64,000 nucleotides of DNA from Aurantimonas marina. GTDB taxonomy: Bacteria > Pseudomonadota > Alphaproteobacteria > Rhizobiales > Rhizobiaceae. The stretch is taken from positions 1 through 64,000 of the forward strand of contig NZ_JADDXW010000009.1 of assembly GCF_017183135.1 (NCBI RefSeq). Reading direction: 5' to 3'. Both the position numbers and the translations under genes were made by a program. The first letter of the stretch is position 1. The number at the start of each line of letters is the position of its first letter. Positions 6,239 to 57,650 of this stretch are shown here, piece after piece. The notes beneath the pieces are model-generated. The model was given only the letters and a program-made list of their open reading frames with translations, had not been told where the DNA came from and searched no databases.

Positions 6239-6254
6239 ACGGAGGAACGACAAA

Positions 6255-8621: not shown

Positions 8622-8640
8622 CGCTACGCGGCTGTCATGG

Positions 8641-14665: not shown

Positions 14666-16102
14666 TCAGGCCGCGAGCGCGGCCGCCAGCTTGCCCATGT
14701 CAGTCGCCGTTTCCAGCGTTGCGACCATGTCGATGATCGCTTCGCTCTTGTCTTTCGGCCAGCGGGCGAATTCGGTGCAACCGCGGAACTTGTCCGCCAC
14801 CTCCTCGTAGCTCATCGGATTGGCCGGCGAGCCCTTGCCGAAATCGGCGCGGCCGGAAATCCTGCTTCCGTCCTTCATCTGGATGTCGAGGATCGTCGTC
14901 ATCTTGGCGTAGCCGGCGGCTTCCGCATCTGGGTGATTGTGAAAGTTGACGCGCTCGATCATCGCCCGCACGTCATCGCGCAACACCGTCTCGTCGGTGA
15001 ATTCGGGAAGGTTAGCGCGGCCGTCCAGCAGGAGGATCGCCATGCAGAACTCCATCGAGAACTTCGCCTGGAGTTCGTTCTGCGGGCGATGATGGATCAG
15101 GGCGTTCAGCATGTTGTGGTTGGTGCCGACGTCGATGCGTTCCACATCCTCGGCCTTGATACCGTGCTTGGCGATCAGCGACAGCATCTCGGTCATGCCT
15201 GGATGGGTGAGGGAGCCCGATGGATGCGGTTTGATGGAGATACCCGGATCGGCGAAGCTCCAGGGCGAGCCGAGCTTGCCGCGAATGGCGTTGAGGTCGT
15301 AGCCGCCGCCATGGGCCTGGAAGAAACCGCGCGGCGCCTCGAGGATCTTGTCGGTCGCGCTCCAGCCCATGCCGGCAAGATCGCAGGCGACGACGCCGGA
15401 TTCGGACGACCGGCCGGCATGGAACGGCTTCGTCATCGTCCCGAAATTCTCGCGCAGCCCGGCGCTCTGGCTGCCGGCGATCGATAGCGCGCGCTGCAGG
15501 GTCTCCTGGTCGAAGCCTCTCAGCTTACCGGCGGCCGAGGCCGCGGCGAATGTCCCACAGGTGGCGGTCGCGTGGAAGCCGTGCTGGTAATGCCTCGGCG
15601 AGATCGCCTCGGCGATCTTGCACTCGACATCGACGCCGACGAGATAGGCGGCGAGGAGATCGCGGCCGGTAAGGGACCGCAGTTCCGTTTCTGCGAAGGC
15701 CGCCGGCAGGCAGGGCGCCGTCGGATGGGTCAGCAGGCCGTAGACGCGATCCTCCGCGACGGCGAGCTGGGTATCGTCGTAATCGTCGGCATGGATGCCG
15801 ACGCCGTTGGCGAAGGCCGCGAAGCGCGACGGCACCTTGAGGCCGGTGCCCATGACCGTCGCTTTTCCAGCGCCGGCGACGTCCGAGACATGCTGCTGCA
15901 CATATTTGCCCGACATCGCGACCGAGCCGGACAACGCTAGCCCGAACCCGTCGAGGATCGATTTCTTGCCCAACTCCACGACACTGGTGGGAATGGCGTC
16001 GAAGCTGGTATCTAGAACGAAGGCCGCAACCTCGGCCGTCAGCCCTTCGCCGACGGACTGGTCGCTCTGCGGTGTGAAGTGGGTCGGTGCGCGCTGTTCC
16101 AT
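14666..16102 (-). CDS. MmgE/PrpD family protein (copy 2)
   Basis: A second member of the 2-methylcitrate dehydratase/cis-aconitate decarboxylase family, about 478 residues. It shows FGLALSGSVAMSGKY, the family's GIHADDYDDTQ segment, LTHPTAPCLPAAFAE and PFHAGRSSESGVVACDLA. I place the start at ATG 16102, which has a GAGGG site, rather than at 16168, which has none. The divergent neighbour is a tartrate dehydrogenase-like gene, and two operator-like palindromes lie between them. The pair mirrors the arrangement of copy 1 with its own dehydrogenase, so the two sets may act on related substrates or on two steps of one pathway. Confidence 0.88.
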   Translation of the reverse strand: MEQRAPTHFTPQSDQSVGEGLTAEVAAFVLDTSFDAIPTSVVELGKKSILDGFGLALSGSVAMSGKYVQQHVSDVAGAGKATVMGTGLKVPSRFAAFANGVGIHADDYDDTQLAVAEDRVYGLLTHPTAPCLPAAFAETELRSLTGRDLLAAYLVGVDVECKIAEAISPRHYQHGFHATATCGTFAAASAAGKLRGFDQETLQRALSIAGSQSAGLRENFGTMTKPFHAGRSSESGVVACDLAGMGWSATDKILEAPRGFFQAHGGGYDLNAIRGKLGSPWSFADPGISIKPHPSGSLTHPGMTEMLSLIAKHGIKAEDVERIDVGTNHNMLNALIHHRPQNELQAKFSMEFCMAILLLDGRANLPEFTDETVLRDDVRAMIERVNFHNHPDAEAAGYAKMTTILDIQMKDGSRISGRADFGKGSPANPMSYEEVADKFRGCTEFARWPKDKSEAIIDMVATLETATDMGKLAAALAA

Positions 16103-16190
16103 GCCTGGGCCCTCGTTTTGGATGCTCTGGGTGGTGTCCGCCTGGATGTCCGGCCGATGAGTCTGCATCAGCTATCAATTACATTTGCTT

Positions 16191-43565: not shown

Positions 43566-43735
43566 GAAGCTGCTCCGATCGCTGCGCGCGTCCTTGCCCG
43601 TTGGCGTCCGGTCTAGACGGATGGTCGGCGGGCGGATGGCTCGACCTTATCCATTCGTTCGGCAAGAGACGAGACGTTCCAACCGCGATGTTAGTGACCC
43701 TTCAAGTCAACTTATCCAGAGAGTCGCAGGGAGTG

Positions 43736-43752
43736 GTTGCCAAAGCTGCAAC
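43736..43752. promoter_or_regulatory. Inverted repeat upstream of the TTT operon
   Basis: GTTGC-CAAAGCT-GCAAC is a 5-7-5 inverted repeat about 110 bases before the solute-binding protein gene. The same arms with a four-base spacer occur at 57352-57365 before the biotin carrier gene. It could be a regulator site, but the spacer differs, so support is weak. Confidence 0.25.
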
Positions 43753-43864
43753 TCATGTTACGGTACTCGGGAGCCGCTGTGTTGTTAGGGGGTTTCCTGC
43801 AGGGCGCCGGCCAGAAAATAAGGCGAACAATCGCCAAGCAGCATCCTGGGAGGAGGAGATCATC

Positions 43865-44863
43865 ATGAAATTGCAAAGGACGTCCCGAAACTGTCGGATA
43901 TTGTCGCGCCGCATGGCGCGTGCGCTGGTCGCCGGCATGATAGTCGCCGTTCCATCGGCTGTCGTGGCGCAGGACGCCTTCCCATCGGAGCAGATCGAGA
44001 TCATCTCGCATGCGTCCCCGGGGGGCGGCACGGACCAGACCATCCGCATGTGGATCGATGCTGCATCGAAGATTCTGGGACAGGACCTGGTCGTCGTCTA
44101 CAAGCAGGGCGGCGCGGCCAGGGTGGCGCACGAATATCTGGCGTCCCGGCCGGCGGATGGTCACACGCTCATGGCCACGACCGAGACCCATCTTTATACC
44201 ATGGCGCGCGGTATGTCGCCGATCGGCATCGACGACGTAAAAGGTGTGGCGCGTGCCATGCAGGATCCTTCGGTGATCGTCGTTCGCGGCGACAGCGATA
44301 TCCAGGACTATGACGGTCTGATTGCGGCCTCCAAGGAGAAGGCGCTCAATTGGGGCGTGGCGCAAGTCGGCGGAACCGAGCATATCGGCATCAGCCGCTG
44401 GGCCGATCAGGCCGGGGTCGAATATCGCGTCGTGCCCTTCGGCAGTGGCGGGGAAATGATCACGGCCCTTCGCTCGGGAGCGATCGACGCGACCCTCGCC
44501 AACGTCAGCGAGGCCCTCGGCCCGATCGCGGATGGTGATCTTCGCGCCATCGTCGCCCTTTCGGACGAGCCGATCGCGGACTTGCCGGATGTCCCGACGG
44601 CGGCGTCCAAAGGCCATGACGTCTCGGTGAACACGACACGGGGCTACGTCGTTCGGGCGGACACGCCCCCGGAGCGTGTGGCGGTCCTCGAGGCTGCGCT
44701 GCTGGAGGCGATGGGCGGCGAACAGTTCACCACCTATCTCAAGAACTCCGGTCTCGACCCGGCCACCAGCGTTGCCGGGAGCGAGGCCTGGGACGCGCAG
44801 CTCAAGAAAGCCTATGCCGAGGCGGCCGAAGCCATCGAGAAGCTGGGGCTGGAGAAAAAGTAA
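43865..44863 (+). CDS. tctC: Tripartite tricarboxylate transporter substrate-binding protein (TctC/Bug)
   Basis: The 332-residue protein has a signal peptide (RRMARALVAGMIVAVPSAVVAQ, of which the core is ALVAGMIVAVPSAVVAQ). The mature part has the Bug-family ligand loop IISHASPGGGTDQTIRMW near residue 50, VVYKQGGAARVAHEYLA and a GSGGEMITALRSGAID segment. These periplasmic receptors bind carboxylates such as citrate, glutamate or aromatic acids with the loop that contains PGGGTD. It is the first gene of the transport operon; GGGAGGAGGAG precedes the ATG. A large hairpin follows, a usual way to give the receptor more mRNA than the membrane subunits. Confidence 0.92.
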   Translation: MKLQRTSRNCRILSRRMARALVAGMIVAVPSAVVAQDAFPSEQIEIISHASPGGGTDQTIRMWIDAASKILGQDLVVVYKQGGAARVAHEYLASRPADGHTLMATTETHLYTMARGMSPIGIDDVKGVARAMQDPSVIVVRGDSDIQDYDGLIAASKEKALNWGVAQVGGTEHIGISRWADQAGVEYRVVPFGSGGEMITALRSGAIDATLANVSEALGPIADGDLRAIVALSDEPIADLPDVPTAASKGHDVSVNTTRGYVVRADTPPERVAVLEAALLEAMGGEQFTTYLKNSGLDPATSVAGSEAWDAQLKKAYAEAAEAIEKLGLEKK

Positions 44864-44882
44864 GAGGCTGGACCGCCCAGAG

Positions 44883-44924
44883 CGGGATGAAGGATACGGG
44901 ACTTCGTTGTCCGTCCCCATCCCG
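44883..44924 (+). terminator. Intercistronic hairpin after the TTT substrate-binding protein gene
   Basis: CGGGATG (44883-44889) pairs with CATCCCG (44918-44924); inside, ACGG-G-AC (44896-44902) pairs with GTCCGT (44909-44914) with one bulge and a TTCGTT loop. It is followed by a pyrimidine-rich stretch but no true T run, and lies before the small membrane subunit gene. Partial termination or mRNA protection are both possible. Confidence 0.6.
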
Positions 44925-44991
44925 TTCTCCCTCCGTCAAGCGATCAGGTCGATGAAACCGGTTCGGCCGTTTTCAATCTCACGCTGATCCA

Positions 44992-45540
44992 GTGGGGCTT
45001 TCATTGACCCAAGACAACCAACCAACGCTCCCGGAGCGTGCGGATCATTCCTCGTCCTCCGGCCTCGATCGCTCGGACCTCGTCGTGTCCGCGGTGCTCA
45101 TCGTGATCTGCGTCATCCTCTATTGGGATACGACGCGCTGGCCCGCCGTTCCCGCGTCGCTGGCGCAAAACGCCCCGCCCACAGTTTTTCCGCGTCTGCT
45201 GATCGGCTCGATCGTTGTCATGGCCCTGGCGCTTCCCTTCGAACGGATCATCAAACGGCGGTCCGGCGACGAGTTGGATATAGGCGGTGAGAAGAGACCG
45301 AGACCGGTGGTCTTCATCACCGCAGCGCTCATGACCCTGGCTGTCTATTTCATGCCTGTCTTGGGGGTTGTCCCGGTCATGGTCGCGGCGACAGCCCTGC
45401 TTCCGCTGTTGTGGGGAGAAAGGCGCTACGGCCTGATCGCGGCATTCGCGGTCGGGCTGCCGACCGCCGTCGCGGTTCTGTTCGCGGTCGGCCTCAAGGT
45501 GAACCTCGCTTTCGGTCTCACCGGCGCGCTGTTTCGTTAG
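44992..45540 (+). CDS. tctB: Tripartite tricarboxylate transporter small membrane subunit (TctB)
   Basis: About 180 residues with four hydrophobic segments: LVVSAVLIVICVILYW near residue 30, RLLIGSIVVMALALPF near 70, VFITAALMTLAVYFM near 107 and the Ile/Ala-rich end (GLIAAFAVGLPTAVAVLFAVG). This is the length and topology of TctB. Start is uncertain: GTG 44992 or TTG 45004, the latter with GTGGGG six bases ahead. Nine bases separate it from the large subunit gene. Confidence 0.85.
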   Translation: MGLSLTQDNQPTLPERADHSSSSGLDRSDLVVSAVLIVICVILYWDTTRWPAVPASLAQNAPPTVFPRLLIGSIVVMALALPFERIIKRRSGDELDIGGEKRPRPVVFITAALMTLAVYFMPVLGVVPVMVAATALLPLLWGERRYGLIAAFAVGLPTAVAVLFAVGLKVNLAFGLTGALFR

Positions 45541-45549
45541 GAGACGACC

Positions 45550-47079
45550 ATGGACATCGGCGCGATCCTGGCGGGCATTTCACTCATCCTCAACCCCATG
45601 AGCCTGCTACTGATCCTCGTGTCGGTGGTGATCGGAGTGCTCGTCGGGGCCTTGCCGGGCTTGAGCTCCAGCATGGCGGTTGCGCTGCTTCTGCCCTTCA
45701 CCATCGGCATGGATCCGATCCTGGCGATCTCCATGATGGCGGCGCTCTATGTGGCCGGCACCTTCGGCGGCTCTATTACCGCGATCCTCATCAACACGCC
45801 CGGCGCGCCACCCGCGGTCGCCACGTCCTTCGACGGCTATCCGATGGCGCAACGCGGCGAGGCGGGGCGGGCCCTCGGCATGGCGGCGGTCGCAAGCGTC
45901 CTCGGTGGCTTGTTCAGCCTGGTGATCTTCATCCTGTTCACACCGCTGCTCGCCCGCATCGCGCTCAGCTTCCGGCCGCAGGAATATTTTGCCCTCACGC
46001 TGTTCGGATTGTCGATGCTGGCCGCGATCAGCGGCAAGTCGTCGTTGCGAAATCTGATCGCCGGGGGGCTGGGCGTGCTGACGAGCACGGTCGGCATAGC
46101 GCTGGTCAGCGGGATTGAGCGCTTCACCTTCGGCTTTCCCGTTCTCTATGAGGGAATCAACTTCGTCCCGGTTCTCATCGGCATCTTTGCGATCAGCGAG
46201 CTTTTGAACCAGTCGCAAGCGGGCGACAAAGTAATGAAGCGCGTCAAGTCGCTCGCTCTGAAATTGCCCAGCCGCGAGGATTTCCGCCGTTGCCGGATGA
46301 CGATCCTGCGCTCGTCCATCATCGGCACCGTGATCGGGGTTCTGCCGGCCGAAGGCACGACCGTCGCTGCGATCATGGGCTACAACGAGGCCAAGCGCTG
46401 GTCCAAGAATAAGGAAGAGTTCGGCAAGGGCGCCATCGAGGGTATCGCGGGACCGGAAGCGGCGAACAACGCCGGCACCGGCGGCGCCATGGTTCCGACG
46501 CTCGCGCTCGGCATCCCCGGTAGCGGGACGACGGCGATCATTCTCGCGGCATTGATGATGCACGGTCTGAGGCCGGGACCCTTTCTGATGACCGAAACGC
46601 CCGAGTTTCTCTACGCGATCTTCACCGCTATGTTCCTCGCCAACATCCTGTTCCTGGTCGTGGGACTGGGTGGTGTGAAGCTATTTTCCCTGATCACACT
46701 GGTCCCTCGCACGTTCCTTTGGCCGGCGGTGTTCGTCTTCGCGCTGATCGGGTCGTATTCGTTTCGCCAGGCGCCGGTGGACGTATGGGTGATGCTCATT
46801 TCCGGCGTCATCGGCTTCTTCGCCTTGCGCAAGGGATTCGGTCCGGCGCCGTTCGTGATGGGCTTGGTGCTCGGCGGTTTGCTGGAAAAGTCCTGGTCGC
46901 AGTCGATGATTATTTTCGACAGCAACTGGCTGCGATTTTTCGAAAGCCCGATCTGTCTGTTTTTCTATGCGCTGACGCTTTTGAGCCTTGGCGGACCGCT
47001 GCTGTTCGCGAGCCTGCGCCGTCGACTGCAGGGGCCGATGCGCCGCGCGTTTCCATTCAGATCGAACCTGGAGGAGTAG
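45550..47079 (+). CDS. tctA: Tripartite tricarboxylate transporter large membrane subunit (TctA)
   Basis: The 509-residue permease has the highly conserved first half: VGALPGLSSSMAVALLLPF near residue 36, MAALYVAGTFGGSITAILIN near 62, TPGAPPAVATSFDGYPMA near 83, and in the middle GVLPAEGTTVAAIMGYNEA near 260 and ALGIPGSGTTAIILAALM near 318. There are about twelve membrane helices. It moves the acid handed over by the TctC protein, driven by sodium or proton gradient. Confidence 0.94.
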   Translation: MDIGAILAGISLILNPMSLLLILVSVVIGVLVGALPGLSSSMAVALLLPFTIGMDPILAISMMAALYVAGTFGGSITAILINTPGAPPAVATSFDGYPMAQRGEAGRALGMAAVASVLGGLFSLVIFILFTPLLARIALSFRPQEYFALTLFGLSMLAAISGKSSLRNLIAGGLGVLTSTVGIALVSGIERFTFGFPVLYEGINFVPVLIGIFAISELLNQSQAGDKVMKRVKSLALKLPSREDFRRCRMTILRSSIIGTVIGVLPAEGTTVAAIMGYNEAKRWSKNKEEFGKGAIEGIAGPEAANNAGTGGAMVPTLALGIPGSGTTAIILAALMMHGLRPGPFLMTETPEFLYAIFTAMFLANILFLVVGLGGVKLFSLITLVPRTFLWPAVFVFALIGSYSFRQAPVDVWVMLISGVIGFFALRKGFGPAPFVMGLVLGGLLEKSWSQSMIIFDSNWLRFFESPICLFFYALTLLSLGGPLLFASLRRRLQGPMRRAFPFRSNLEE

Positions 47080-47184
47080 GCGGCAGACGGTCCGCTGGAG
47101 CCTGGCTTAACCGTCTCAGGCTGACCGGTCCTCTTGCCCGCTACCGAGCCAGTGCTTTGCGTCTCGTGTCAAAGGAGGATGTCG

Positions 47185-47937
47185 ATGGGTTATCAGGGTG
47201 CACGTGAACTGGAGGGTTGCGTCGTCATCGTGACGGGAAGTGCCCGGAACATCGGGCGCTGTATCGCGCTGGAATTGGCGGATGCCGGTGCCGCCGTGGT
47301 CATTCATACGAGAACCGATCTCGATGCCGCCCGCTCCGTCGAGCAGGAAATCGTCGGCAGCGGTGGACAGGCCATGACGCATGCGGCGGATGTCGGCGAC
47401 CCAGAGCAGGTTCGCGGTCTGGTCGATGCGGCGCTCGCGAAGTTCGGACGGATCGATATTCTCGTCAACAATGCCGCCTCGCGCGGCGACGCGCCATTGG
47501 AGAACATCTCGCTGGAGGATTGGCGTAAGGTCCACAGCAGCATTCTCGACGGCGCCTTCCTCTGCAGCCAGGCTTGTGCTCCGTATCTTTCGGCCAACGG
47601 ACGTGGCGCGATCGTCAACATCGGCGGCGTCGCGGGCCAGGCCGCCGTCGGAGGCCGGGCGCATGTCGTCGCCGCAAAGGCGGGTATCTCGGGTCTGACA
47701 CGGGCCCTTGCCACCGAACTGGCCGACCGCGACCTCACCGTCAATTGCGTCTCGCCGGGCTATATCGACACCAAGCGGGATCATGTCCCGCCGCATTTCC
47801 GCGATCGGCCGGTCCCGTTGAAGCGTCCGGGGAAGCCGGAGGAGATCGCCGCGGCCGTGCGCTTCATGTGCGGCCCCAATGCCCGCTACATCACCGGACA
47901 GACGCTGGGGGTCAACGGCGGCTGGCACATGAACTGA
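47185..47937 (+). CDS. Short-chain dehydrogenase/reductase with altered catalytic residues
   Basis: The 250-residue protein is a full-length SDR: VIVTGSARNIGRCIALEL near residue 13, DILVNNAASRG near 87, RVNC-like TVNCVSPGYIDT near 185 and the C-terminal RYITGQTLGVNGG. However, the active site differs: where the family has Ser it reads NIGGVAG (Gly), and the YxxxK motif reads HVVAAKAG with Val at the Tyr place, while the Lys stays. Classical hydride transfer at an alcohol would be impaired; the enzyme may act on another group or need a different base. An AAAGGAGG site gives start 47185. It follows the transporter and precedes MmgE/PrpD copy 3. Confidence 0.85.
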   Translation: MGYQGARELEGCVVIVTGSARNIGRCIALELADAGAAVVIHTRTDLDAARSVEQEIVGSGGQAMTHAADVGDPEQVRGLVDAALAKFGRIDILVNNAASRGDAPLENISLEDWRKVHSSILDGAFLCSQACAPYLSANGRGAIVNIGGVAGQAAVGGRAHVVAAKAGISGLTRALATELADRDLTVNCVSPGYIDTKRDHVPPHFRDRPVPLKRPGKPEEIAAAVRFMCGPNARYITGQTLGVNGGWHMN

Positions 47938-48038
47938 TCGAGACTCGCTCGGGGTGGGACTGTCCGGGAGGCAGGACGAGGGAAGGGCGCCGCAGGCAGG
48001 GGCAGTGTCGCGGGCCGTAAGGTGAGGGGAGCGGGTTT

Positions 48039-49412
48039 ATGGGTGCTGGACCGAACGAAATAAGTGCGGTGATGCGGACGGTGAGTGCCCATGTCGCGGC
48101 GGCACTGCAGACTGCAATCCCCCGCGACGTCGCGGCGAAGGGCAAGCATCATCTGCTGGATACCCTGGCGGCGATGATCTCGGGCTCGCGGTTGCAGCCG
48201 GGGAGGATGGCTACAGCCTATGTGCAGGGGCAGGGCGGAATGCCCGAGGCATGCGTCATCGGCAGTGACATCATGACCTCGGCAGTTAATGCTGCGCTGG
48301 CGAACGGCATGCTCGCACACGCCGATGAGACGGACGATTCCCACGAGCCGTCCTTCAGTCACCCGGGCTGCGCCGTCGTGCCGGCGGCGCTGGCGATGGC
48401 CGAGCGGCATGGGCGAAGCGGAACCGATCTGCTGCGCGCTGTCGTGCTCGGCTATGACATCGGCGCGCGGTTCACGCTGGCCCTCGGCCCGCGCAATTTC
48501 TACGCCCGCGGTTTCAGCAGCCACGCCTTTGCCGGGCTTTTCGGCGCATCCGCCGCAGCCTTTGCGCTCGCGGGGCTCGGTGCGGACGCCGTGCGGCAGG
48601 GTTTTTCCTTCACGGCCCAGCAGGCTTCCGGCCTCGCCACCTGGGTGCGCGACGAGGAACATGTCGAGAAGGCCTTCGATTTCGCCGGCATGCCCGCCCG
48701 CAACGCGGTCGCCTCCGCGACGATGATGACCGCAGGGTTCACCGGCGTCGCCGACGTCTTTTCTGGCGACCGCAATGTCTTCGCCACTTTTGCGGCGGAT
48801 CCCGACATCGCGGTGATGAGCCGAGAGCTTGGTCGCAATTACGAGATCATGCGCGCCAACATCAAGAAATGGTCGGTCGGCTCGCCGATCCAGGCCGCGC
48901 TGGATGCGATCGAGCATCTCATGGCGCAAGAGGATCTCACCAGCGGTCAGGTCGACACGATTCTCGTGCGTCTGCCGGACAGCGAGGCACATATCGTCGA
49001 TGGACGCACGATGCCGGACGTCAATCTCCAGCATCTCGTGGCCGTGCTTCTGGTTCGCGGTGGCCTCGATTTCAAAAGCGCCCATGACTATGCACTGATG
49101 GAGGATGCGTCGGTGCACGCGATGCGCAAGCGTATTCGCCTTGTCGCCGATGCCGAACTCGGCGCAGCGGTCCCACGCCGTCAGGCGATCGTCGAAGTGG
49201 CGACGCGGGACGGGCGTCGGCTTCGCCGGCGCACCCGCGCGGTCCGTGGGACAGCCGACAACCCGATGGACACCGTCGAAATCGAGGCCAAGGCGTTCGA
49301 TCTTGCCAAGGATGTTTTCGGCGAACAGACCGCGCACGCATTCGTGAGGCGCATTGGGGAGATCGAAACCGTGGCGGATGTGCGTGAGCTCCGGCCGTTG
49401 CTGCAACCGTGA
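48039..49412 (+). CDS. MmgE/PrpD family protein (copy 3)
   Basis: The 457-residue protein has AKGKHHLLDTLAAMISGSRL near residue 28, GMLAHADETDDSHEPSFSHPG near 88 (shortened here to its acidic-His core HADETDDSHE), the AALAMAERHGRSG segment and YARGFSSHAFAGLFGASAAA near 150. The acidic-His core and PG are the family's active-site region. It follows the SDR by 101 bases and is likely part of the TTT operon, so its substrate should be the imported acid or a near derivative. It differs from copies 1 and 2 in the SHE region, so function may differ too. Confidence 0.87.
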   Translation: MGAGPNEISAVMRTVSAHVAAALQTAIPRDVAAKGKHHLLDTLAAMISGSRLQPGRMATAYVQGQGGMPEACVIGSDIMTSAVNAALANGMLAHADETDDSHEPSFSHPGCAVVPAALAMAERHGRSGTDLLRAVVLGYDIGARFTLALGPRNFYARGFSSHAFAGLFGASAAAFALAGLGADAVRQGFSFTAQQASGLATWVRDEEHVEKAFDFAGMPARNAVASATMMTAGFTGVADVFSGDRNVFATFAADPDIAVMSRELGRNYEIMRANIKKWSVGSPIQAALDAIEHLMAQEDLTSGQVDTILVRLPDSEAHIVDGRTMPDVNLQHLVAVLLVRGGLDFKSAHDYALMEDASVHAMRKRIRLVADAELGAAVPRRQAIVEVATRDGRRLRRRTRAVRGTADNPMDTVEIEAKAFDLAKDVFGEQTAHAFVRRIGEIETVADVRELRPLLQP

Positions 49413-49606
49413 GGCTGTCGGCGGTCAGGCGTTCGAGGCACCCGGTCTGTCACTGCGGTTGACGAACTGAGCGGGGGCTGGGGCCAAGCGCGATCCGTGG
49501 CGCAAGACGGTTGTGTTTCGCCGCCCGAGTGGTGTCTATCGCGTCCACGTCGAGACGGAATACGGGCGGCGGCGTAAGAGCCCGAAAACAGGATGGTGAG
49601 GTTTCG

Positions 49607-50479
49607 TTGGTTGGAAAGATCGCTCCCTCGGACTCTGCGGCTAGTGAGTTCCTGGCGGATTTGAAACGTCTCGGGTTCACCGAGTACGAAGCGCGCATCT
49701 ATGTCCAACTGCTGCGCCAGAGTCCGTCCACCGCCTATGAGATTTCCAAGAGTACCGGCGTGCCGCGGCCGAACGCCTACAGCGCGCTGGAGGCTTTGAG
49801 CCAGCGAGCGGCGGTTCTGCCGGTCAGCGAGAATCCGGTTCGCTATGTGGCGGCGGATCCGCAGACGTTCTTGAATTCGGTGTCCCGCCAGACCAGCGCC
49901 TTGTGCAAGGATCTGGGCGCCAAGCTGTCTGATCTGGCGCCCGCGACCAAGGACCAATATGTCTGGATGTTGTGGGGCGAGGAGGCCGCGCACGACAAGA
50001 TCGACGCGCTGATCAATGGCAGCCTGCATACCCTTCTGATCAAGGCCGCGTCCGACATTCTGCGGCGCCACAAGGATACCCTCCGAACGGCGGCGGAACG
50101 CGGCGTCGAAATGATGATCGTCCTGTTCGGGACGGACGCCGAAGAGTTCCGTTTCAGCGACAAATGCCGTGTCTATCTGCACGAGGCCAATGGCGTGCGC
50201 ATGGGGACGACGGACAATCTGTTCACGATCGCGGCCGACCACGAGGAAATGGTGACGGCCGCCGTCGTCGGTGAGGTGATCGCCGCGCATACGCGGAACA
50301 AGCTGGTAGTCAACATGGCGGAATCGCTCGTCCGGCACGATTTCTACATGGCGGAAATTTTTGAGCGGTTCGGCGATCAGATCGACGCGGCCTTCGGCGA
50401 GCATCTTCGCGATCTGCGGCTCGCCTGTTTCACACCGGAGCAGGTCGCGTCGTTCAAGCAGCGGACCGGTCTGAGCTAA
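49607..50479 (+). CDS. TrmB-type transcriptional regulator
   Basis: About 290 residues. The N-terminal winged helix reads LKRLGFTEYEARIYVQLLRQ and SPSTAYEISKSTGVPRPNAY, the typical TrmB domain; the rest resembles a TrmB-like C-terminal ligand domain with VWMLWGEEAAHDKIDALING. TrmB regulators, best known in archaea, sense sugars; bacterial members sense varied ligands. It lies between the TTT-SDR-MmgE unit and the acyl-CoA carboxylation unit, as would suit the regulator of both. Start is probably TTG 49607, behind GTGAGG; TTG 49511 would add 32 residues without sequence support. Confidence 0.82.
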   Translation: MVGKIAPSDSAASEFLADLKRLGFTEYEARIYVQLLRQSPSTAYEISKSTGVPRPNAYSALEALSQRAAVLPVSENPVRYVAADPQTFLNSVSRQTSALCKDLGAKLSDLAPATKDQYVWMLWGEEAAHDKIDALINGSLHTLLIKAASDILRRHKDTLRTAAERGVEMMIVLFGTDAEEFRFSDKCRVYLHEANGVRMGTTDNLFTIAADHEEMVTAAVVGEVIAAHTRNKLVVNMAESLVRHDFYMAEIFERFGDQIDAAFGEHLRDLRLACFTPEQVASFKQRTGLS

Positions 50480-50665
50480 CCCTGCCCCCTGATCCCTTTT
50501 CGCAATCCGTGCCGGCTCATCCGCACGAGATCAGCGTGCCATATTGAAGCCCGGCCGCATCCATCGGCCATGGATCGGATCGCCGCACCACCGTCCCGAC
50601 CGCGATTCCCGGCTGCCTTGGGGCACCGGGCGAAGGCAGCTCATTGCAATCCTCGCACCGAAGTA

Positions 50666-50682
50666 GTAGTCATAGCAACTAC
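50666..50682. promoter_or_regulatory. Inverted repeat GTAGT-N7-ACTAC before the enolase-superfamily gene
   Basis: A 5-7-5 inverted repeat (spacer CATAGCA) about 90 bases before the ATG. It has the same geometry as the repeat at 43736-43752. It could be an operator for the TrmB-type regulator encoded just upstream, but arm sequences differ. Confidence 0.3.
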
Positions 50683-50769
50683 GTAAGCACCCACGGCTTG
50701 CATCGCTTCTGCGGTCCTACGGGAGAAGGCCCAAGTGACTATGACCGGTGGATGCGGGGGAGGTACGCC

Positions 50770-51843
50770 ATGGCGAAAATTCAACGGGCGACGCTGCGAC
50801 GGCTCGCTCTGCCGCTGATCCGGCCCTATCGGCTCTCCTACCGGACGTTTGAAACCTTCGAGCCATTCCTGGTGGAGGTCGAGGATGAAGACGGTCGCTC
50901 GGGCTTCGCCGATGGCCACATCTCTCCGGGTTCCAGCGCCGAAACGCGGGAGGGCGGCTGGGCATTTCTGTGCGAAAGCCTGCGAGCCGCGATCGGACTC
51001 GAGACGACGGCGGCCAAGGCATCGGTGCTCGACCGGTTTACAACAAGCAAGGTCGCGGCGACGGCCTTTGCGACGGCGATCGAGGTGCTTCAGGCCAATC
51101 CTCTGCTCGATTTGCCGGACGAGATGATTCTGCCGCTGCTCACGCCCCTCAACGCGCTTGAGCCTGCGGCGATCGTCGAGGAAATCGAAGCCTGGCTGGC
51201 GCAGGGATTCGGCACCTTCAAGATCAAGGTCGGCAAGGATGTCGATGCCGATCTTCAGCGCGTCGCGATCATTCAAGAAGCGACGCGGGGACGGGCGATG
51301 CTACGGCTCGACGCCAATCGCGCCTACAGCCGAGAGGAGGGCCAACACTTCGCATCCCGGCTCGACCCCGAAGGCATCGAGCTCTTCGAGCAGCCTTGCG
51401 ACGCCGATGATTGGGACGCCAATGCGGCGGTTGCCGCGGTATCGCGCGTGCCGCTGATGCTGGACGAGCCGATCTGCGCGCTGGCCGACATCGATCGCGC
51501 GGCCACGATCCCGGGCGTCGGCTACTGCAAGCTCAAGCTCAAGCGGTTCGGCGGCCTCGACCGTCTGAAGCAAGGCTTGGACGCGGTGCGACAGAACGGC
51601 ATGGAGCCTGTGCTCGGTGACGGTCTGGGAAGCGAGATCCACGGGTGGCTCGAGGCTTGCGTCGCCAGAACGACGATCCACAACGCCGGCGAGTTCAACG
51701 GGTTCTTGAAACCCCGGGATCGCCTGTTCGTCGAACCGATGCCCTTTCAAGACGGCGCCATTCGGCTTCCAGCCGGCTATCGCCCCCGCCTGGATCGCGA
51801 CGCGGTCGAACGGTTCACCCTCGAGCGGCGCGACTTCGAATAG
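50770..51843 (+). CDS. Enolase-superfamily enzyme, muconate lactonizing/mandelate racemase-like
   Basis: The 357-residue protein has an N-terminal capping domain and a barrel with FGTFKIKVGKDVDAD (KxK) near residue 150, LRLDANRAYSREEG (Asp) near 178, IELFEQPCDADDW (Glu) near 205, LMLDEPICALAD (Asp) near 230 and CKLKLKRFGGLDRL (Lys) near 252. So both bases and all three metal ligands are present. It would take a proton alpha to a carboxylate: racemisation, epimerisation, cycloisomerisation or dehydration. GGGGGAGG precedes ATG 50770. It starts the second unit of accessory block 2, before the carboxyltransferase gene. Confidence 0.86.
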   Translation: MAKIQRATLRRLALPLIRPYRLSYRTFETFEPFLVEVEDEDGRSGFADGHISPGSSAETREGGWAFLCESLRAAIGLETTAAKASVLDRFTTSKVAATAFATAIEVLQANPLLDLPDEMILPLLTPLNALEPAAIVEEIEAWLAQGFGTFKIKVGKDVDADLQRVAIIQEATRGRAMLRLDANRAYSREEGQHFASRLDPEGIELFEQPCDADDWDANAAVAAVSRVPLMLDEPICALADIDRAATIPGVGYCKLKLKRFGGLDRLKQGLDAVRQNGMEPVLGDGLGSEIHGWLEACVARTTIHNAGEFNGFLKPRDRLFVEPMPFQDGAIRLPAGYRPRLDRDAVERFTLERRDFE

Positions 51844-51869
51844 AACTCAGCGAGAAGGCGAGAAGACGC

Positions 51870-53402
51870 ATGGCGCATGAAACGATTTTGGCCGAACTCG
51901 ATCGACGCCGCGAGGCCGCGCGTTCCATGGGCGGCGAGGCGAAACTCGCCAAGCGGCGCGAGAGGGGGCAGCTGAATGCGGGGGAGCGTCTCGACGCACT
52001 CGTCGACAAGGACAGCTTCCTAGAGGTCGGCCTGCTCGGCCAGTCGGTTTTCGAGGCCGATGCCGCCGCTACGCCCCGCGACGGCAAGATAACCGGATTC
52101 GGACGCATCGATGGCCGCGACGTCGGCGTCGTCGTCAACGATTTCACCACCAAGGGCGCCTCGACCAGCGCCACCAATTCCAAGAAGATCGGCTATATCC
52201 GCAAAACCTGCACCGAGAAGGGCATGCCCTTCGTCCATGTCGGCGAGTCGACCGGCGCGCGCCTGCCCGACGCCATGGGCTCCAAGGGCATGGGCGCGAT
52301 GCTCGGCAATGACACCAGCCAGTTTCGGCGGATGCGCGATACGCCGTGGGTCGCGGCTGCCCTCGACACCTCCTTCGGATCATCGGCCTGGCTGTGCTGC
52401 TGTTCCGACTTCGCAGTCATGAAAAAGGGCTCGATCATGTCCGTGTCCAGCCCCCGGCTGGTCTCGATGGCGATCGGCGAGAAGGTGGATCTGGAGGAAC
52501 TCGGCGGCTGGCGTCTTCACGCCGATCAGACAGGGCTCATCGACCACTTTGTGGATACCGACGAGGAGGCGATGGCCGCCATCCGCCGGTTCCTGTCCTA
52601 CATGCCGAGCCATAATGGCGTCCTGCCGCCGGAGACGACGACCTCCGAAGGTTCCGGCGCGGAGCAGGACCGGATTCTGGACGTGCTGCCCGAGAAGCGC
52701 ACGCAGGTCTACAACATCAAGAAGATCATCGAGGTGATCTTCGACCAGGATTCGTTCCTCGAGATCAAGCCGCGTTTCGGCAAGTCCGCCGTCGTCGGGC
52801 TTGCCCGCCTCGCCGGCAAGGTCACCGGCATCATCGCCAACAACCCGCATGTCGGCGGCGGCGCTCTGTCGGCCGAGGCGTGTCGCAAGATCATCGATTT
52901 CACCGTGTTGTGCGACAGTTTCAACATTCAGATCGTGCGCCTGATGGACACCCCCGGCTTCGTCGTGGGGACCGATGCCGAACGCCGGGGAGCGCCCGGC
53001 CAGATCATGAATTTCATGAACGCGACCTGCCTCACGACCGTGCCCCAGATCACCGTGATCTGTCGCAAGGCCTACGGCCGCGCTTATGTCGCCATGGGCG
53101 GCGGGGCGCACAACAGCGCGATGGTGGCCTGGCCCACCGCCGAGGTCAGCTTCATGGACCCGGTCTTCGCCACCAGCATCGTGCACAATCTGCAAGCCGG
53201 GCAGGAGGGGTTCGAGGCCGCGCTGGCCGAGATCCAGAAGGATCTCGAAATATGGGACATGGCGCGCATCTTCTCGGCGCATGACGTCATCAAACCCCAG
53301 GAGACGCGCGGCTTTCTCATCCGCATGTTCGACATCCAGGCGCGGCGCCGCTCCGGCGGCGTTGGCGAGCATTTGATGCGTGCCTGGCCGACCAGCTACT
53401 GA
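51870..53402 (+). CDS. Acyl-CoA carboxylase, carboxyltransferase (beta) subunit
   Basis: This 510-residue crotonase-fold subunit has GERLDALVDKDSFLEVG near residue 35, FVHVGESTGARLPDAMGS near 115, GASTSATNSKKIGYIRK, and in the second half SAVVGLARLAGKVTGIIANNP near 298 with VRLMDTPGFVVGTDAERRG near 350 (a metal-free oxyanion pocket pattern) and FMDPVFATSIVHN. The pattern is of propionyl/methylcrotonyl/geranyl-type carboxyltransferases: it moves carboxyl from biotin to an acyl-CoA. Biotin carboxylase and carrier are encoded 2-4 kb downstream on the other strand. The acyl-CoA used cannot be named with confidence. GGCGAGAAGACGC lies ahead of the ATG. Confidence 0.88.
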   Translation: MAHETILAELDRRREAARSMGGEAKLAKRRERGQLNAGERLDALVDKDSFLEVGLLGQSVFEADAAATPRDGKITGFGRIDGRDVGVVVNDFTTKGASTSATNSKKIGYIRKTCTEKGMPFVHVGESTGARLPDAMGSKGMGAMLGNDTSQFRRMRDTPWVAAALDTSFGSSAWLCCCSDFAVMKKGSIMSVSSPRLVSMAIGEKVDLEELGGWRLHADQTGLIDHFVDTDEEAMAAIRRFLSYMPSHNGVLPPETTTSEGSGAEQDRILDVLPEKRTQVYNIKKIIEVIFDQDSFLEIKPRFGKSAVVGLARLAGKVTGIIANNPHVGGGALSAEACRKIIDFTVLCDSFNIQIVRLMDTPGFVVGTDAERRGAPGQIMNFMNATCLTTVPQITVICRKAYGRAYVAMGGGAHNSAMVAWPTAEVSFMDPVFATSIVHNLQAGQEGFEAALAEIQKDLEIWDMARIFSAHDVIKPQETRGFLIRMFDIQARRRSGGVGEHLMRAWPTSY

Positions 53403-53415
53403 CGGAGCGATTGCG

Positions 53416-55626
53416 ATGACCATTCAGGAGCCACTTGGCCGGGACATCATTGCCGCGGCGCGTGCGCGGGGCCGGCGATCCCTCGACGAAGCCGCCGGCA
53501 AGGAATTGCTCGCGCGTTACGGCGTGTGTTCGCCCCGTTCGGCGCTGGCCCGGGACGCCGCCGATGCCGAAGCCAGGGCGAGGGGGATGCGCGCGCCCTT
53601 CGTCGTCAAGGTCGTGTCGCCGGACATCCTCCACAAATCGGATGCCGGAGGGGTCGCGCTCGGGCTGGACGGCGCCGACGCAGTCCGCGCCGCCGTCGAG
53701 GCGATGGCGATCAAGCCGGAGATTGCCGCCGTGGTGATCGATGGCTGGCTGGTCGAGGAGATGATTCCTTCGGGCCGCGAGATCGTCATCGGTGGCATTC
53801 AAGACCCACAATTCGGGCCGATGCTGATGGTCGGCCTCGGCGGTATCTTCGTCGAGGTCCTGAAGGACGTGGCGTTCCGGCTGTGTCCGATCGATGCGGC
53901 CGACGCCCGCGCCATGCTCCGCGAACTGAGGGGCTTTGCCCTGCTTGGTGACATCCGGGGCGAAGCGGCGGTCGACGAGGAGGCTTTGGTCCAGGCGATG
54001 GTTCGGATCGGCGGTCCGGGAGGCTTTTTGATGGCGCTCGGCGACGATGTCGCCGAACTCGATCTCAATCCCGTCATCGTTTCGGCCTCGGGGCTGATGG
54101 CGGCCGATGCCCGTGTCATTCTCACCGAGCGGGAGAACCGGCCCGTCTCGAAACCTGAGAAGGCGGAATCCGGCGATCCGCTGATCGAATTCAAGCCGTT
54201 GTTCGAACCAAGAACCGTCGCGGTTCTCGGTGCCTCCACCAAGGACGTCGCGATCGCCAATACCTTCATCCGCCGGTTGAAGGATTTCGGCTTTTCCGGC
54301 GCCATCTATCCGATCCATCCTTCGGCGGAGGAGATCGAGGGGCTGAAGGCGTACCCGTCGCTCGGGGAGACGCCTGAGGCGGTCGACTACGCCTATGTCG
54401 CCGTCGGCGCGGGCCGGATCCCCGATGTGCTTGCGGCCGCCAAGGGGCGCTGCCGTATCGCACAGGTGATTTCGTCGGGCTTCGGCGAAGTTGCCGAGGG
54501 CAGGGCGCTTCAGGACGATCTCGTGGCGGGCGCCAGAGCCGGCGGACTGCGTGTCCTCGGACCGAATTGTCTAGGCACCTATTCGCCGCGCGGCTGCCTC
54601 ACCTTTCCGAGCGACGCGCCGCGCGAACTGGGGCGCATCGGTGTCGTCTCCCAGTCGGGCGGGTTGTCGACCGACATCATCAAGCGTGGCCAATGGCGCG
54701 GCCTGCGCTTCAGCGGTCTGGTGACCATCGGCAACAGCGCCGACGTCGAGCCGCATGAGCTCGTCGCCTATTATCTTGCGGACGAACAGACCAAGGCGAT
54801 CGGCGTCTATATCGAAGACATCAAGCGGGGTAGGGCCTTCTTCGACCTGCTTCGCGGCGCCCAGCCGACAAAGCCTGTGGTGATCTTGAGGGGTGGACGC
54901 TCGGCCCAGGGGCGCCTCGCCGCCGCGTCGCATACCGGCGCCTTGGCCGGCGACGGGAGGGCGTGGGAGGCGCTCGCCGCGCAGCTTCCGGTCGCGCTCG
55001 TCGACACGGTGGACGAATTCATCGACGTCCTTCTGGCCCTGCAGCATCTCGACCTGCGGCCGGAAAAGCCGACGAAGAACGTCGCGCTGTTCGGCAATGG
55101 CGGCGGCTCCAGCGTGCTGGGCACGGACATCTTCGCCAGCATGGGGCTCGATGTCGCCCCGTTCGGCGAAGCGGCCCGCGAGCCGCTCGAAGCGCTCGGG
55201 CTTCCGCCGGGCACCAGCGTCGTCAACCCGATCGACACGCCGGTGCGAACCCTGCAGGAAAAGGACGGCTGGGTGGCGGGTGAAATTCTCGACATCGTCT
55301 ACCGCAATGCGAAGCCCGACGTCGTGGCAATGCATCTGAACCTTGCCGCCTTCGTCGGGCGGGGGGCGATCGATCCGGTCGGCAATTTGTTCAAGGTGAT
55401 CGAGCAGACACAGGCGAAGTGGCCGGGAATCGCGCATTTCGCGCTGGCGCTGCGCACCGACGGTTCGCCCGAACTCGATGAAAGCCGCCGCCATTACCGG
55501 GAGAAGGCGCGCAAGATCGGTGTGCCGGTTTTCGACGAAATTCCCGCAATGGCCCGCGCCCTTGCCACCATCGCGCATCTGGAGCGTCGACTGCGGTCAC
55601 GCGATACGTCCGCGCCGCTCGGGTGA
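53416..55626 (+). CDS. ADP-forming acyl-CoA ligase (acetate-CoA ligase family), ATP-grasp first
   Basis: The 736-residue enzyme has, from the N-terminus, an ATP-grasp domain (about 1-225) with FVVKVVSPDILHKSDAGGVA near residue 70 and the acidic end ELDLNPVIV, then a CoA-binding Rossmann domain from about 255 (RTVAVLGASTKDVAIANTF), and a succinyl-CoA-ligase-like module with VVSQSGGLSTDIIKRG near 415 and SHTGALAGD near 508, which has the phosphohistidine-type His. It makes an acyl-CoA from an acid with ATP to ADP + phosphate. In the reference archaeal and E. coli Pat type enzymes the CoA-binding part comes first; this order is a known variant. Starts 13 bases after the carboxyltransferase, so it supplies its CoA substrate. 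Confidence 0.87.
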   Translation: MTIQEPLGRDIIAAARARGRRSLDEAAGKELLARYGVCSPRSALARDAADAEARARGMRAPFVVKVVSPDILHKSDAGGVALGLDGADAVRAAVEAMAIKPEIAAVVIDGWLVEEMIPSGREIVIGGIQDPQFGPMLMVGLGGIFVEVLKDVAFRLCPIDAADARAMLRELRGFALLGDIRGEAAVDEEALVQAMVRIGGPGGFLMALGDDVAELDLNPVIVSASGLMAADARVILTERENRPVSKPEKAESGDPLIEFKPLFEPRTVAVLGASTKDVAIANTFIRRLKDFGFSGAIYPIHPSAEEIEGLKAYPSLGETPEAVDYAYVAVGAGRIPDVLAAAKGRCRIAQVISSGFGEVAEGRALQDDLVAGARAGGLRVLGPNCLGTYSPRGCLTFPSDAPRELGRIGVVSQSGGLSTDIIKRGQWRGLRFSGLVTIGNSADVEPHELVAYYLADEQTKAIGVYIEDIKRGRAFFDLLRGAQPTKPVVILRGGRSAQGRLAAASHTGALAGDGRAWEALAAQLPVALVDTVDEFIDVLLALQHLDLRPEKPTKNVALFGNGGGSSVLGTDIFASMGLDVAPFGEAAREPLEALGLPPGTSVVNPIDTPVRTLQEKDGWVAGEILDIVYRNAKPDVVAMHLNLAAFVGRGAIDPVGNLFKVIEQTQAKWPGIAHFALALRTDGSPELDESRRHYREKARKIGVPVFDEIPAMARALATIAHLERRLRSRDTSAPLG

Positions 55627-55687
55627 TTTGACGGCCCGCACCATCGCCCAGGCAAGCGCCATGGCGCCGGACCTTGCCGTGGCCTGA

Positions 55688-57064
55688 TCACGCCGCCAGG
55701 ATTGCCTTGGCGTGCTCGTCGAGAAAGCCGGTATGCACATCGCCCGCGCGGAACGCGTCGTTGCGAAGGCACCCAATCAGAAAGTCCCGATTGGTGCGAA
55801 GACCATCGATCGACCAGTTTCGCAAAGCCTGCTCGGCGCGTTCGCAGGCTTCCAGGCGGTCGCGGCCATGGACGATCAGCTTGGCGATCAGCGGATCATA
55901 GAACGGCGTCATCACGTCGCCTTCGCGGTAGCCGCTGTCGACCCGCACATGCTCGGTTTCCGCAGGGGGCTTGAAAATCGTCAAGGGGCCCGGCGCCGGC
56001 ATGAACATCTTCACCGGATTTTCGGCATAGAGCCGGCATTCGATGGCGTGTCCAGCAGACCGGATGCCCTCCTGCTCGGCGCCGGTCAGTCGACCGCGGG
56101 CAAAGTCGATCTGCATGGCGACGAGGTCGACGCCGGTCACCATTTCCGTCACTGGATGCTCGACCTGAATGCGCGTATTCATCTCGAGGAAGAAGAAGTC
56201 GAAGCTGGTCGCATCCACGATGAATTCGACTGTTCCCGCGCCGCCATAGCGGGTGTGGGCGCAAAGCGACACGGCCGCCTCGCCCATACGCCGGCAAACT
56301 GCCTCGGGTAGGCCGGGCGCGGGACTTTCCTCGATGACCTTTTGAAACCGCCGCTGGACGGAACAATCCCGCTCGAAGAGATGGATTGCCTCGCCGTTGC
56401 CGAAACCGAAAACCTGGATTTCAATGTGGCGCGCACGGGGAACGAACCGCTCGAGAAAGATCGCGCCGTTGCCAAAGGATTTCTCCGCCATTGACTGGGT
56501 AGCGGTAACGGTCGACGCGAGTTGGGATTCCTCGTCCACCCGGCGCATCCCGATGCCGCCGCCGCCGCCGACCGCCTTGACCAGCAGAGGAAAGCCGACC
56601 GCTCGCCCGGCCACTTCGAGATCGTCGGTGTCTCCCATATCGAACGTCCGGCTGCCCGGCACGACAGGAACGCCGGAAGCCTGCGCAATCTCGCGGGCGC
56701 GTTGTTTGTCGCCCATCTGCCGAATGATGTCGGCGGTCGGACCGATCCAGTTCAGGCCTTCCGCCGTCACAAGCTCGGCGAACGCGGCATTCTCCGCGAG
56801 AAAGCCGTATCCGGGATGGATCGCGTCCGCGCCGACCCGGCGCGCGGCCTCGAGGATATTACTGGCGTTCAGATAGCTTTCGCGGGGTGAGGATGGCCCG
56901 ATGGCAACCGCTTCATCTGCCGCGTCGACGTGAAGGCTCGCCGCGTCTGCCTCCGAATAGACGGCAACCGTGGACAGGCCGAGCGCTCGCGCGCTGCGGA
57001 AAACACGGCAGGCGATCTCGCCGCGGTTCGCGACCAGGACTTTGTTGATCCCGGCCACGGTCAA
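55688..57064 (-). CDS. Biotin carboxylase subunit
   Basis: The 458-residue protein has the biotin carboxylase fold: VLVANRGEIACRVFRSAR near residue 10, IHPGYGFLAENAAFAE near 83, the ATP-grasp glycine loop KAVGGGGGIGMRRV near 163, ARHIEIQVFGFGNG near 205, FLEMNTRIQVEHPVTEMVTG near 292 and the C-terminal EGDVMTPFYDPLIAKLIVHG near 395. It carboxylates biotin on the separate carrier with bicarbonate and ATP. Its length equals stand-alone AccC, so the biotin carrier is not fused. Start is TTG 57064, overlapping the carrier stop by four bases; GTG 57058 is an alternative. With the carboxyltransferase it makes a three-part acyl-CoA carboxylase apart from the fatty acid enzyme. Confidence 0.9.
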   Translation of the reverse strand: MTVAGINKVLVANRGEIACRVFRSARALGLSTVAVYSEADAASLHVDAADEAVAIGPSSPRESYLNASNILEAARRVGADAIHPGYGFLAENAAFAELVTAEGLNWIGPTADIIRQMGDKQRAREIAQASGVPVVPGSRTFDMGDTDDLEVAGRAVGFPLLVKAVGGGGGIGMRRVDEESQLASTVTATQSMAEKSFGNGAIFLERFVPRARHIEIQVFGFGNGEAIHLFERDCSVQRRFQKVIEESPAPGLPEAVCRRMGEAAVSLCAHTRYGGAGTVEFIVDATSFDFFFLEMNTRIQVEHPVTEMVTGVDLVAMQIDFARGRLTGAEQEGIRSAGHAIECRLYAENPVKMFMPAPGPLTIFKPPAETEHVRVDSGYREGDVMTPFYDPLIAKLIVHGRDRLEACERAEQALRNWSIDGLRTNRDFLIGCLRNDAFRAGDVHTGFLDEHAKAILAA

Positions 57065-57282
57065 GCCTCGATGCGGGCCACGACCGTGCCTTCCGTGACG
57101 GTCTCGCCTTCGGCGGTGAGAATTTCGACCAGGCGGCCATCCTCGGGCGCTGTGATCGGGATCTCCATTTTCATCGATTCAAGGATCATGATCGGGTCAT
57201 CCTCACTGAGGTCCTGGCCGATCTCGGCGATGATCTTCCAGAGATTGCCGGTAATTTCCGTCTTGACGTCAATGATGGTCAT
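57061..57282 (-). CDS. Short stand-alone biotin carboxyl carrier protein
   Basis: Only 73 residues long: a bare biotinyl domain with the biotin Lys in ILESMKMEIPI near residue 35, ITGNLWKIIAEIGQDL before it and EGTVVARIEA at the end. Standard AccB is about 150-160 residues with a flexible Ala/Pro linker, which is absent here, as in other biotin/lipoyl-carrier proteins of minor carboxylases. CGGGAGGG lies before ATG 57282. Next gene downstream: biotin carboxylase. Confidence 0.9.
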   Translation of the reverse strand: MTIIDVKTEITGNLWKIIAEIGQDLSEDDPIMILESMKMEIPITAPEDGRLVEILTAEGETVTEGTVVARIEA

Positions 57283-57650
57283 CGCCGCTAAAGCCCTCCC
57301 GTTCGATGTCGCGCCTCGCGAAAGGCAACGGTACAGGAATGTCAGATAGTTGTTGCGAACGCAACGTCGATTCGAAGGGGCATGCGGCGGAGCGACCGTC
57401 CCCGACTTGCCCAATGCGGGCAAAGTTGCGACCAGTTCGTTGATGGAACGGCCGATTTCCGGCGATTGCGAGGATTGACGGGATTCGCCGTCCTTTATGA
57501 GTGTTCGCAAGGGGTTGCGCCGTTCGATGCGGCGGAGCTACCTGCCGCAAGGCGCGACCTTGTGAGCCGGGCGGTGCTTCGATAAAGGTCGTGTAACATC
57601 TCTCGAATTCTTCGATCCGGCGACGTTGAACCGGCGAAGATGGTGTGATC
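57283..57650. other. 368-base divergent intergenic region
   Basis: It separates the minus-strand carrier/biotin carboxylase unit from the plus-strand LysM gene. It holds an inverted repeat GTTGC-GAAC-GCAAC (57352-57365) about 70 bases before the carrier start, a candidate regulatory site. I see no gene in the rest. Confidence 0.5.

Follow-up and report, generated by a model that had tools for sequence, protein, structure and literature searches.

A predicted regulon of Aurantimonas marina for the uptake, CoA activation and carboxylation of an organic acid

Gene content of the locus

The DNA considered here is a 64-kb stretch of Aurantimonas marina (the window), which belongs to one of the 66 contigs of a 4.03 Mb genome, and its subject is a block of eleven genes that is likely to represent one patchily spread catabolic regulon through which an acid is imported, activated with CoA and carboxylated for breakdown. 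Nine genes lie on the plus strand and are followed by the genes of the biotin carboxylase (BC) and the biotin carboxyl carrier protein (BCCP) on the minus strand. Profile searches confirmed all eleven, in the content and order given by a preliminary description of this DNA. The importer, a tripartite tricarboxylate transporter (TTT), is complete, with TctA, TctB and TctC all matched. Genes and operator copies are as follows.

43727-43758, no strand: operator copy 1 (19.5 bits, second best in the 64 kb), about 106 bp upstream of TctC
43865-44863, plus: TctC, solute-binding protein of the TTT system (PF03401, 97.5 bits); the ATG at 43865 is preceded by GGAGGAGG
44992-45540, start approximate, plus: TctB, small membrane subunit (PF07331, 49.6 bits)
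45550-47079, plus: TctA, large membrane subunit (PF01970, 511.8 bits); identity 82% in locus L007 and 83% in locus L106
47134-47937, start approximate, plus: atypical short-chain dehydrogenase/reductase, SDR (PF13561, 188.8 bits)
48039-49412, plus: MmgE/PrpD protein (two family matches, 159.4 and 84.7 bits)
49511-50479, true start possibly internal to the open reading frame, plus: TrmB-type regulator, candidate operator reader (PF01978, 70 bits, cut-off 25.6)
50657-50688, no strand: operator copy 2 (25.4 bits, best in the 64 kb), about 81 bp upstream of the MLE-type gene
50770-51843, plus: enolase-superfamily enzyme of the muconate-lactonizing (MLE) subgroup (PF13378, C-domain, 112.3 bits)
51870-53402, plus: carboxyltransferase (CT) subunit of a biotin-dependent acyl-CoA carboxylase (PF01039, Carboxyl_trans, 305 bits)
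53416-55626, plus: single-chain ADP-forming acyl-CoA ligase (ATP-grasp_5, 209.8 bits; Succ_CoA_lig, 141.5 bits)
55688-57064, minus: BC subunit (PF00289, PF02786 and PF02785; N, D2 and C domains)
57061-57282, minus: BCCP of 73 residues with the motif ESMKM (PF00364, 59.6 bits)
57343-57374, no strand: operator copy 3 (17.0 bits, third best in the 64 kb), about 60 bp upstream of the BCCP gene

The genes probably form three transcription units, namely tctCBA-SDR-mmgE(-trmB), MLE-CT-ligase and the convergent BCCP-BC, each of which would be headed by one copy of the palindromic operator with the local TrmB as its reader.

A shared operator

A count of inverted repeats upstream of genes revealed GTAGT-N10-ACTAC. 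The operator palindrome is TAGTAGTTGC-N4-GCAACTACTA, with the matrix consensus TAGTAGTTGCAATTGCAACTACTA; the matrix was trained on 111 sites located upstream of genes in other loci, after removal of duplicates and with the window and its closest relative (L005) excluded. After the three copies listed above, the next independent match in the window scores 3.8 bits, and the maximum among 60 first-order Markov shuffles was 12.5. Seven places in the whole genome fit the corresponding IUPAC pattern with at most two mismatches, three of them in this block, while a reversed-pattern control fits 80. Copy 2 is the only match without a mismatch among those listed for the genome, and the four places outside the block reach 2.8, 2.7, 1.4 and below zero by the matrix. 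As the same operator stands before all three units, the importer and the carboxylase parts very probably belong to one regulon. The view that the block is more than a chance assembly is thus borne out, both by the operator copies that unite it and by the recurrence of the neighbourhood in relatives.

Across the loci compared, the genes nearest to operators are those of the MLE-type enzyme (33), BCCP (32) and TctC-type proteins (32), followed by MaoC (13), CitE (9), TrmB (5) and others (12), and three operators have no known gene within reach. TrmB regulators are best known from archaea. Loci that encode one have an operator in 31 of 32 cases, versus 2 of 14 for loci that do not (46 loci; Fisher p 3e-8, kinship ignored); the three exceptions (L041, L009, L028) are all truncated by locus ends. 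This co-occurrence makes the local TrmB most likely the reader of the operator. Two loci outside the training set carry the operator as well. On L106, a separate contig of genome G357, it precedes TctC with 19.8 bits, and L080 is the only locus of the outer CT group (see below) with TrmB, among 13 searched, and the only one with operators, among 15 scanned. This locus, from genome G067, holds a different CT/ligase cluster with two operators (CT 48%, TrmB 43%), and the TrmB-operator pair seems from it to extend beyond the present pathway. An overlap of operator and promoter was considered and set aside: a -10-like hexamer lies 17 bp past the operator's TTGCAA in 20 of 166 oriented sites (next best spacing 11 of 166), a mild enrichment, and none was found in the window.

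The conserved core and its distribution

A CT scan with one genome per species, which relied on six short peptide patterns and therefore reaches near relatives only, returned 44 distinct loci with CT identities of 62-98%. Their titles are mostly those of Alpha- and Betaproteobacteria, plus a gammaproteobacterial and a SAR324 bin. Addition of L049 (a Sulfitobacter plasmid) and L077 (genome G042) gave 46 loci, of which 35 are at least 18 kb long; 30 of these contain MLE, CT and ligase and are called long core loci. In the closest, L005 from an Aurantimonas coralicida bin, the CT is 98% identical and block and flanks are as in the window. Genes were counted as tblastn matches (E 1e-8, at least 150 bp), within about 10 kb of the CT for TctA and TctC; the MLE match of L044 is short, and the SDR and TctC-type counts take in distant relatives.

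By this count the 30 long core loci contain TrmB in 27, BC and BCCP in 28 each, TctA in 23 and TctC-type genes in 27, next to a CitE-like lyase (16), SDR (15), a MaoC-like hydratase (12), AcnA-like (10), BioY (12), YeiH (12), AbrB (9) and metK (4) genes. CT and ligase remain together in all 35 long loci. The presence of TctA near the CT has a binomial p of at most about 8e-14 for backgrounds up to 15% (kinship ignored). In 28 loci including the window that have all six genes, rho is 0.83-0.92 for the distances of MLE, CT, ligase, TrmB and BC compared pairwise and 0.47-0.56 for BCCP against each of the others; all of these values exceed the maximum of 300 permutations. Such correlated distances mark the core as one unit, which consists of six genes: MLE, CT, ADP-forming ligase, TrmB, BC and BCCP.

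These results divide the pathway interpretation of the preliminary description, which had joined nine families. One pathway-like unit stands, and the carboxylase and ligase do occur together with a TTT importer elsewhere, as the neighbourhood comparison that it had proposed reveals. The exact nine-family set does not hold as a unit, given a core of six genes, an importer that does not share the history of the CT, and SDR and MmgE/PrpD genes in only 15 and 3 of the 30 long core loci.

The set is rare. CT matches were found in 5 of 151 family genomes (E<=1e-100) and in 10 of 397 order, 5 of 385 class and 2 of 398 phylum genomes (1e-150), and orthologues above 75% identity in 2, 4, 1 and 1 genomes, respectively, numbers that all include the own genome. 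The inner MLE orthologue (at least 64%) occurs in the same 4 of 397 order genomes as the inner CT, and eight more have relatives of 41-46%. L049, a predicted conjugative plasmid, carries the core together with importer, hydratase-like, lyase-like and BioY genes, and the gene set appears to be patchily spread and mobile.

Further genes recur around the core. In L049, L014, L015 and L046 a metK-type gene accompanies the cluster, inside it or close by, and in L049 it sits between the operators and the MLE-CT-ligase genes. YeiH, a putative sulfate exporter, is seen in L010, L014, L015 and L049 among others, and AbrB-type membrane proteins for example in L016, L023 and L049; the recurrence of these two may point to sulfur in the substrate or in a by-product.

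The core enzymes

In the MLE-type enzyme, KxK, D182, E208, E234 and K257 (counted from 50767, one codon upstream of the ATG) are unchanged in 24 of 24 aligned rows, and position 233 (Asp) deviates in L035; we take these residues to have the roles known for the subgroup, as KxK, metal ligands and opposite Lys. An AlphaFold2 model (pLDDT 93.2) gave a Z of 39.9 to chloromuconate cycloisomerase in a structure search, with N-acylamino-acid racemases within 1 Z of the cycloisomerases and thus effectively tied. Residues and modelled barrel fold together place the enzyme in the MLE subgroup of the enolase superfamily, and cycloisomerase, racemase and dehydratase reactions are not separable by the structure search.

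CT, BC and BCCP have the features of a biotin-dependent acyl-CoA carboxylase set, including the motif for the biotinyl lysine. Among solved structures, the CT is closest to chains of the propionyl-CoA carboxylase (PCC) type (268-224 bits), ahead of 3-methylcrotonyl-CoA carboxylase (MCC) chains (150-144) and geranyl-CoA carboxylase (142). The own genome has PCC-like, MCC-like and two acetyl-CoA carboxylase-like (ACC-like) CT genes, labels that we assign presumptively from motifs, and all of them are located on other contigs. Identity between the CT of the block and the PCC-like one is about 33%, and in a quick tree 44 inner CTs (44 of 47, those more than 95% covered) form one clade with support 100, apart from the single long-branched PCC-like row; the MCC-like row, below 400 residues, was omitted from the tree. 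Membership in PCC is not indicated, as the CT does not group with the own PCC-like chain, nor is membership in MCC, as MCC chains score below the PCC type and the own MCC-like CT is a separate gene. The preliminary description had named a known PCC or MCC as a result that would speak against it, and none was found.

Position 404 of the CT is Arg in at least 43 of 44 inner sequences, Gln in 15 of 15 outer ones, Gly in the own PCC-like and Ala in the MCC-like protein, and Arg 404 may contact an extra carboxylate of the substrate. An initial idea that the CT lacks the equivalent of PccB Asp422 was dropped, since Asp occupies this position in a number of the aligned orthologues, and the window has Ser. 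The ligase has 3-hydroxypropionate-CoA ligase as its closest solved relative (328.7 bits).

The importer, the SDR and the MmgE/PrpD protein

TctA genes are numerous: the own genome has 10, and four other genomes have 10, 18, 31 and 18. As TctA distances do not track those of the CT, the importer is exchangeable between loci, a cartridge governed by the same operator as the core, and its substrate may differ. On L106, TctA, TctB, TctC and SDR are 83%, 69%, 65% and 66% identical to those of the window.

The usual active-site motifs of an SDR are YxxxK and Ser. The SDR of the block, which the preliminary description had singled out as the motif exception, has HxxxK and Gly instead, and so have all 13 others in an alignment of 14 rows including the window, restricted to loci with an SDR identity of at least 44% and excluding about five distant SDRs. 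The same change in 13 relatives points to a trait of this SDR family and not to decay, and the family probably works otherwise than by the textbook reductase mechanism.

For MmgE/PrpD, the closest solved relative is IDS-epimerase (114.5 bits), for which the catalytic residues are given as H85, D88, H99, H150, K198 and K266 (PMC12290011). Four of these six positions are identical, D88 is replaced by Glu, and H150 stands opposite a Ser with a His two residues further. The protein is a probable proton-shifting epimerase or isomerase acting on a polycarboxylate, and the same paper describes the MmgE/PrpD member of an itaconate cluster as a methylsuccinate isomerase (PMC12290011). Two more MmgE/PrpD genes lie elsewhere in the window, at 10616-11983 and 14666-16168, both on the minus strand (family scores 259 and 194 bits).

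Hydratase and lyase partners

An itaconyl-CoA-hydratase-like gene, a citramalyl-CoA-lyase-like gene or both are found in 17 of the 30 long core loci, with both in 11; they formed no part of the scheme first proposed as such. The hydratase of L012 is closest to itaconyl-CoA hydratase (208 bits) and the lyase of L022 to human CLYBL (119.5 bits). Against the RipC model, with its cut-off of 375, the lyase-like partner scores 128 bits. A second TTT cluster, which includes CaiB-type, MmgE and MaoC-type genes and, judging by its sequence, an acyl-CoA dehydrogenase, lies on the own contig C2 at about 82000-94000 (L116).

A model of the pathway and its alternatives

What we infer from these data, beyond the role of TrmB as reader, is the following order of steps and their chemistry. 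The TTT system would import a polycarboxylate or similar acid, and the MLE-type enzyme and/or, in this lineage, MmgE/PrpD would shift a proton beside a carboxylate and thereby racemise, epimerise, cyclise or eliminate. The ADP-forming ligase would form the CoA thioester, and the private biotin carboxylase would add CO2 to the acyl-CoA. In relatives with the partner genes, hydration by an itaconyl-CoA-hydratase-like enzyme and cleavage to central metabolites by a citramalyl/malyl-CoA-lyase-like enzyme would follow; in the window genome these two steps could be supplied by homologues on contigs C2 and C23, or the last steps may differ. A more specific version can be put forward only tentatively and is doubtful as a whole: an imported dicarboxylate, branched or unsaturated, would as its CoA thioester be converted to a tricarboxylyl-CoA by a biotin carboxylase of a new class, with the inner-clade Arg 404 holding the extra carboxylate. 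Hydration and cleavage as for citryl-CoA would then give two central metabolites, and TrmB would control the whole route through its private operator.

Several observations weigh against one catabolic regulon with this chemistry. The weakest point is chemical: known PCC-type chemistry is the alpha-carboxylation of a saturated acyl-CoA, and a hydration step fits poorly after a PCC-type CT, except where the acyl group is unsaturated. Neither a hydratase-like nor a lyase-like gene is present in the window; their relatives lie on C2 (hydratase, 44-45%) and C23 (lyase, 37.5%), and no operator was found near either in the stretches examined. The TctA-CT distance correlation is 0.28 (rho, 25 loci) and falls within the null maximum of 0.42, and a near homologue of MmgE occurs only in L005 (93%), any MmgE being as scarce as stated above. 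The MLE gene is absent in 5 of the 35 long CT loci, which also lack TrmB and operator, and L044 and L047 lack both of the latter despite being core loci. Finally, matrix training and operator counts share many loci, only the window, L005, L080 and L106 being outside, and one tenth of the training sites score no more than 13.3 bits.

Among the alternatives, the set could encode an additional, inducible carboxylase that acts on propionyl-CoA or another short acyl-CoA of this kind, in which case the imported branched unsaturated dicarboxylate would be cleaved first, by hydratase and lyase, and the released acyl-CoA carboxylated. The proximity of the CT to PCC-type chains among solved structures fits this, as do hydratase- and lyase-like partners of the type found in the itaconate pathway, which releases acyl-CoA. 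It is nevertheless unlikely, because PCC-like and MCC-like CT genes exist elsewhere in the genome, because the CT differs from the PCC-like one in identity, clade and residue 404 (Arg, versus Gln in the outer and Gly in the PCC-like sequence), and because the CT-ligase pair is constant over 35 of 35 long loci while 13 of 30 core loci have neither hydratase nor lyase nearby.

A variant itaconate/methylsuccinate cluster, in which the ADP-forming ligase replaces a CoA transferase and the carboxylase is accessory, has to be considered in view of the hydratase- and lyase-like partners in many loci and of the methylsuccinate isomerase assigned to MmgE/PrpD in the known cluster (PMC12290011). This explanation is improbable: the known pathway in its published description lacks a biotin carboxylase (PMC12290011), BC is conserved here (28 of 30) while hydratase (12 of 30) and lyase (16 of 30) are variable, and the lyase stays far below the RipC cut-off. 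Mere chance neighbours, that is, a TTT/SDR/MmgE uptake operon beside an unrelated carboxylase/ligase operon, are very hard to reconcile with an operator shared by all three units and otherwise nearly absent from the genome and with a TctA gene at about 10 kb or less from the CT in 23 of 30 core loci, even though the history of TctA is not that of the CT and TTT genes abound, TctA alone occurring 10 times in this genome.

One catabolic regulon thus remains the reading we prefer. All gene families involved are known. Among the papers listed by literature searches (mostly titles and abstracts, with few subscription journals and no preprints), none deals with this gene set, and none describes the combination, its operator or the two clades of CT and MLE. 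Few catabolic routes for organic acids are known to proceed by carboxylation. The set is rare (4 of 397 order genomes) yet apparently mobile, with one predicted conjugative plasmid, and so clearly defined a regulon would allow the acid to be found by induction alone. Its identity would give a function to the CT clade, the MLE-type family and the atypical SDR family, which are now named by broad family only.

Flanking genes

The left flank of the block consists of Mce/Mla-type genes and the right flank of LysM, ABC, phosphatidylserine decarboxylase and CDP-alcohol transferase genes, so that both look like housekeeping regions. By comparison with two CT-free congeners, the right border can be placed only roughly, between operator copy 3 and about 57559; the right flank is retained in both, and the Mla-type genes do not adjoin it there. 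A congener without this CT (L131, genome G137) has other MaoC-, CitE- and MmgE-like genes at about 5600-10000, several kb before the same right flank, which is perhaps a hot spot for catabolic genes. Base composition reveals no island (G+C 61-67%).

Comparison with known systems

The itaconate/methylsuccinate cluster, as described in PMC12290011, resembles the present block in its MmgE/PrpD protein, there an isomerase of a free dicarboxylate and here a probable one, and in CoA activation, and resembles its relatives only in the itaconyl-CoA-hydratase-like and citramalyl-CoA-lyase-like enzymes, a pair that is present in 11 of 30 long core relatives and not in the window. It differs in that a CoA ligase is found here instead of a CoA transferase, that a biotin carboxylase set, an MLE enzyme, TrmB and the operator are additional, and that no acyl-CoA dehydrogenase is among the six core genes.

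With PCC, the block shares the fold family of the CT and the functions of BC and BCCP. By contrast, BC and the 73-residue BCCP are separate proteins here, and the CT, at about 33% identity to the own PCC-like one, belongs to a distinct clade.

The clusters of the outer CTs (46-53%; L050, L051, L078-L090) likewise contain a CT and in many cases BC and BCCP. Unlike the window, 8 of 13 have a second CT and 7 of 13 a CaiB-type CoA transferase, and a ligase of the window type is found in 3, TrmB in 1 and an MLE match in none of the 13; L050 and L051 are annotated with a CoA transferase and at least two CTs.

Leucine is degraded by 3-methylcrotonyl-CoA carboxylase, a hydratase and HMG-CoA lyase. The CT of the block is closer to PCC than to MCC, the lyase-like partner of its relatives is of the CitE family, and the window genome has its own separate MCC-like CT. 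What the proposed pathway would have in common with the leucine route is the logic of activating, carboxylating, hydrating and cleaving an acid.

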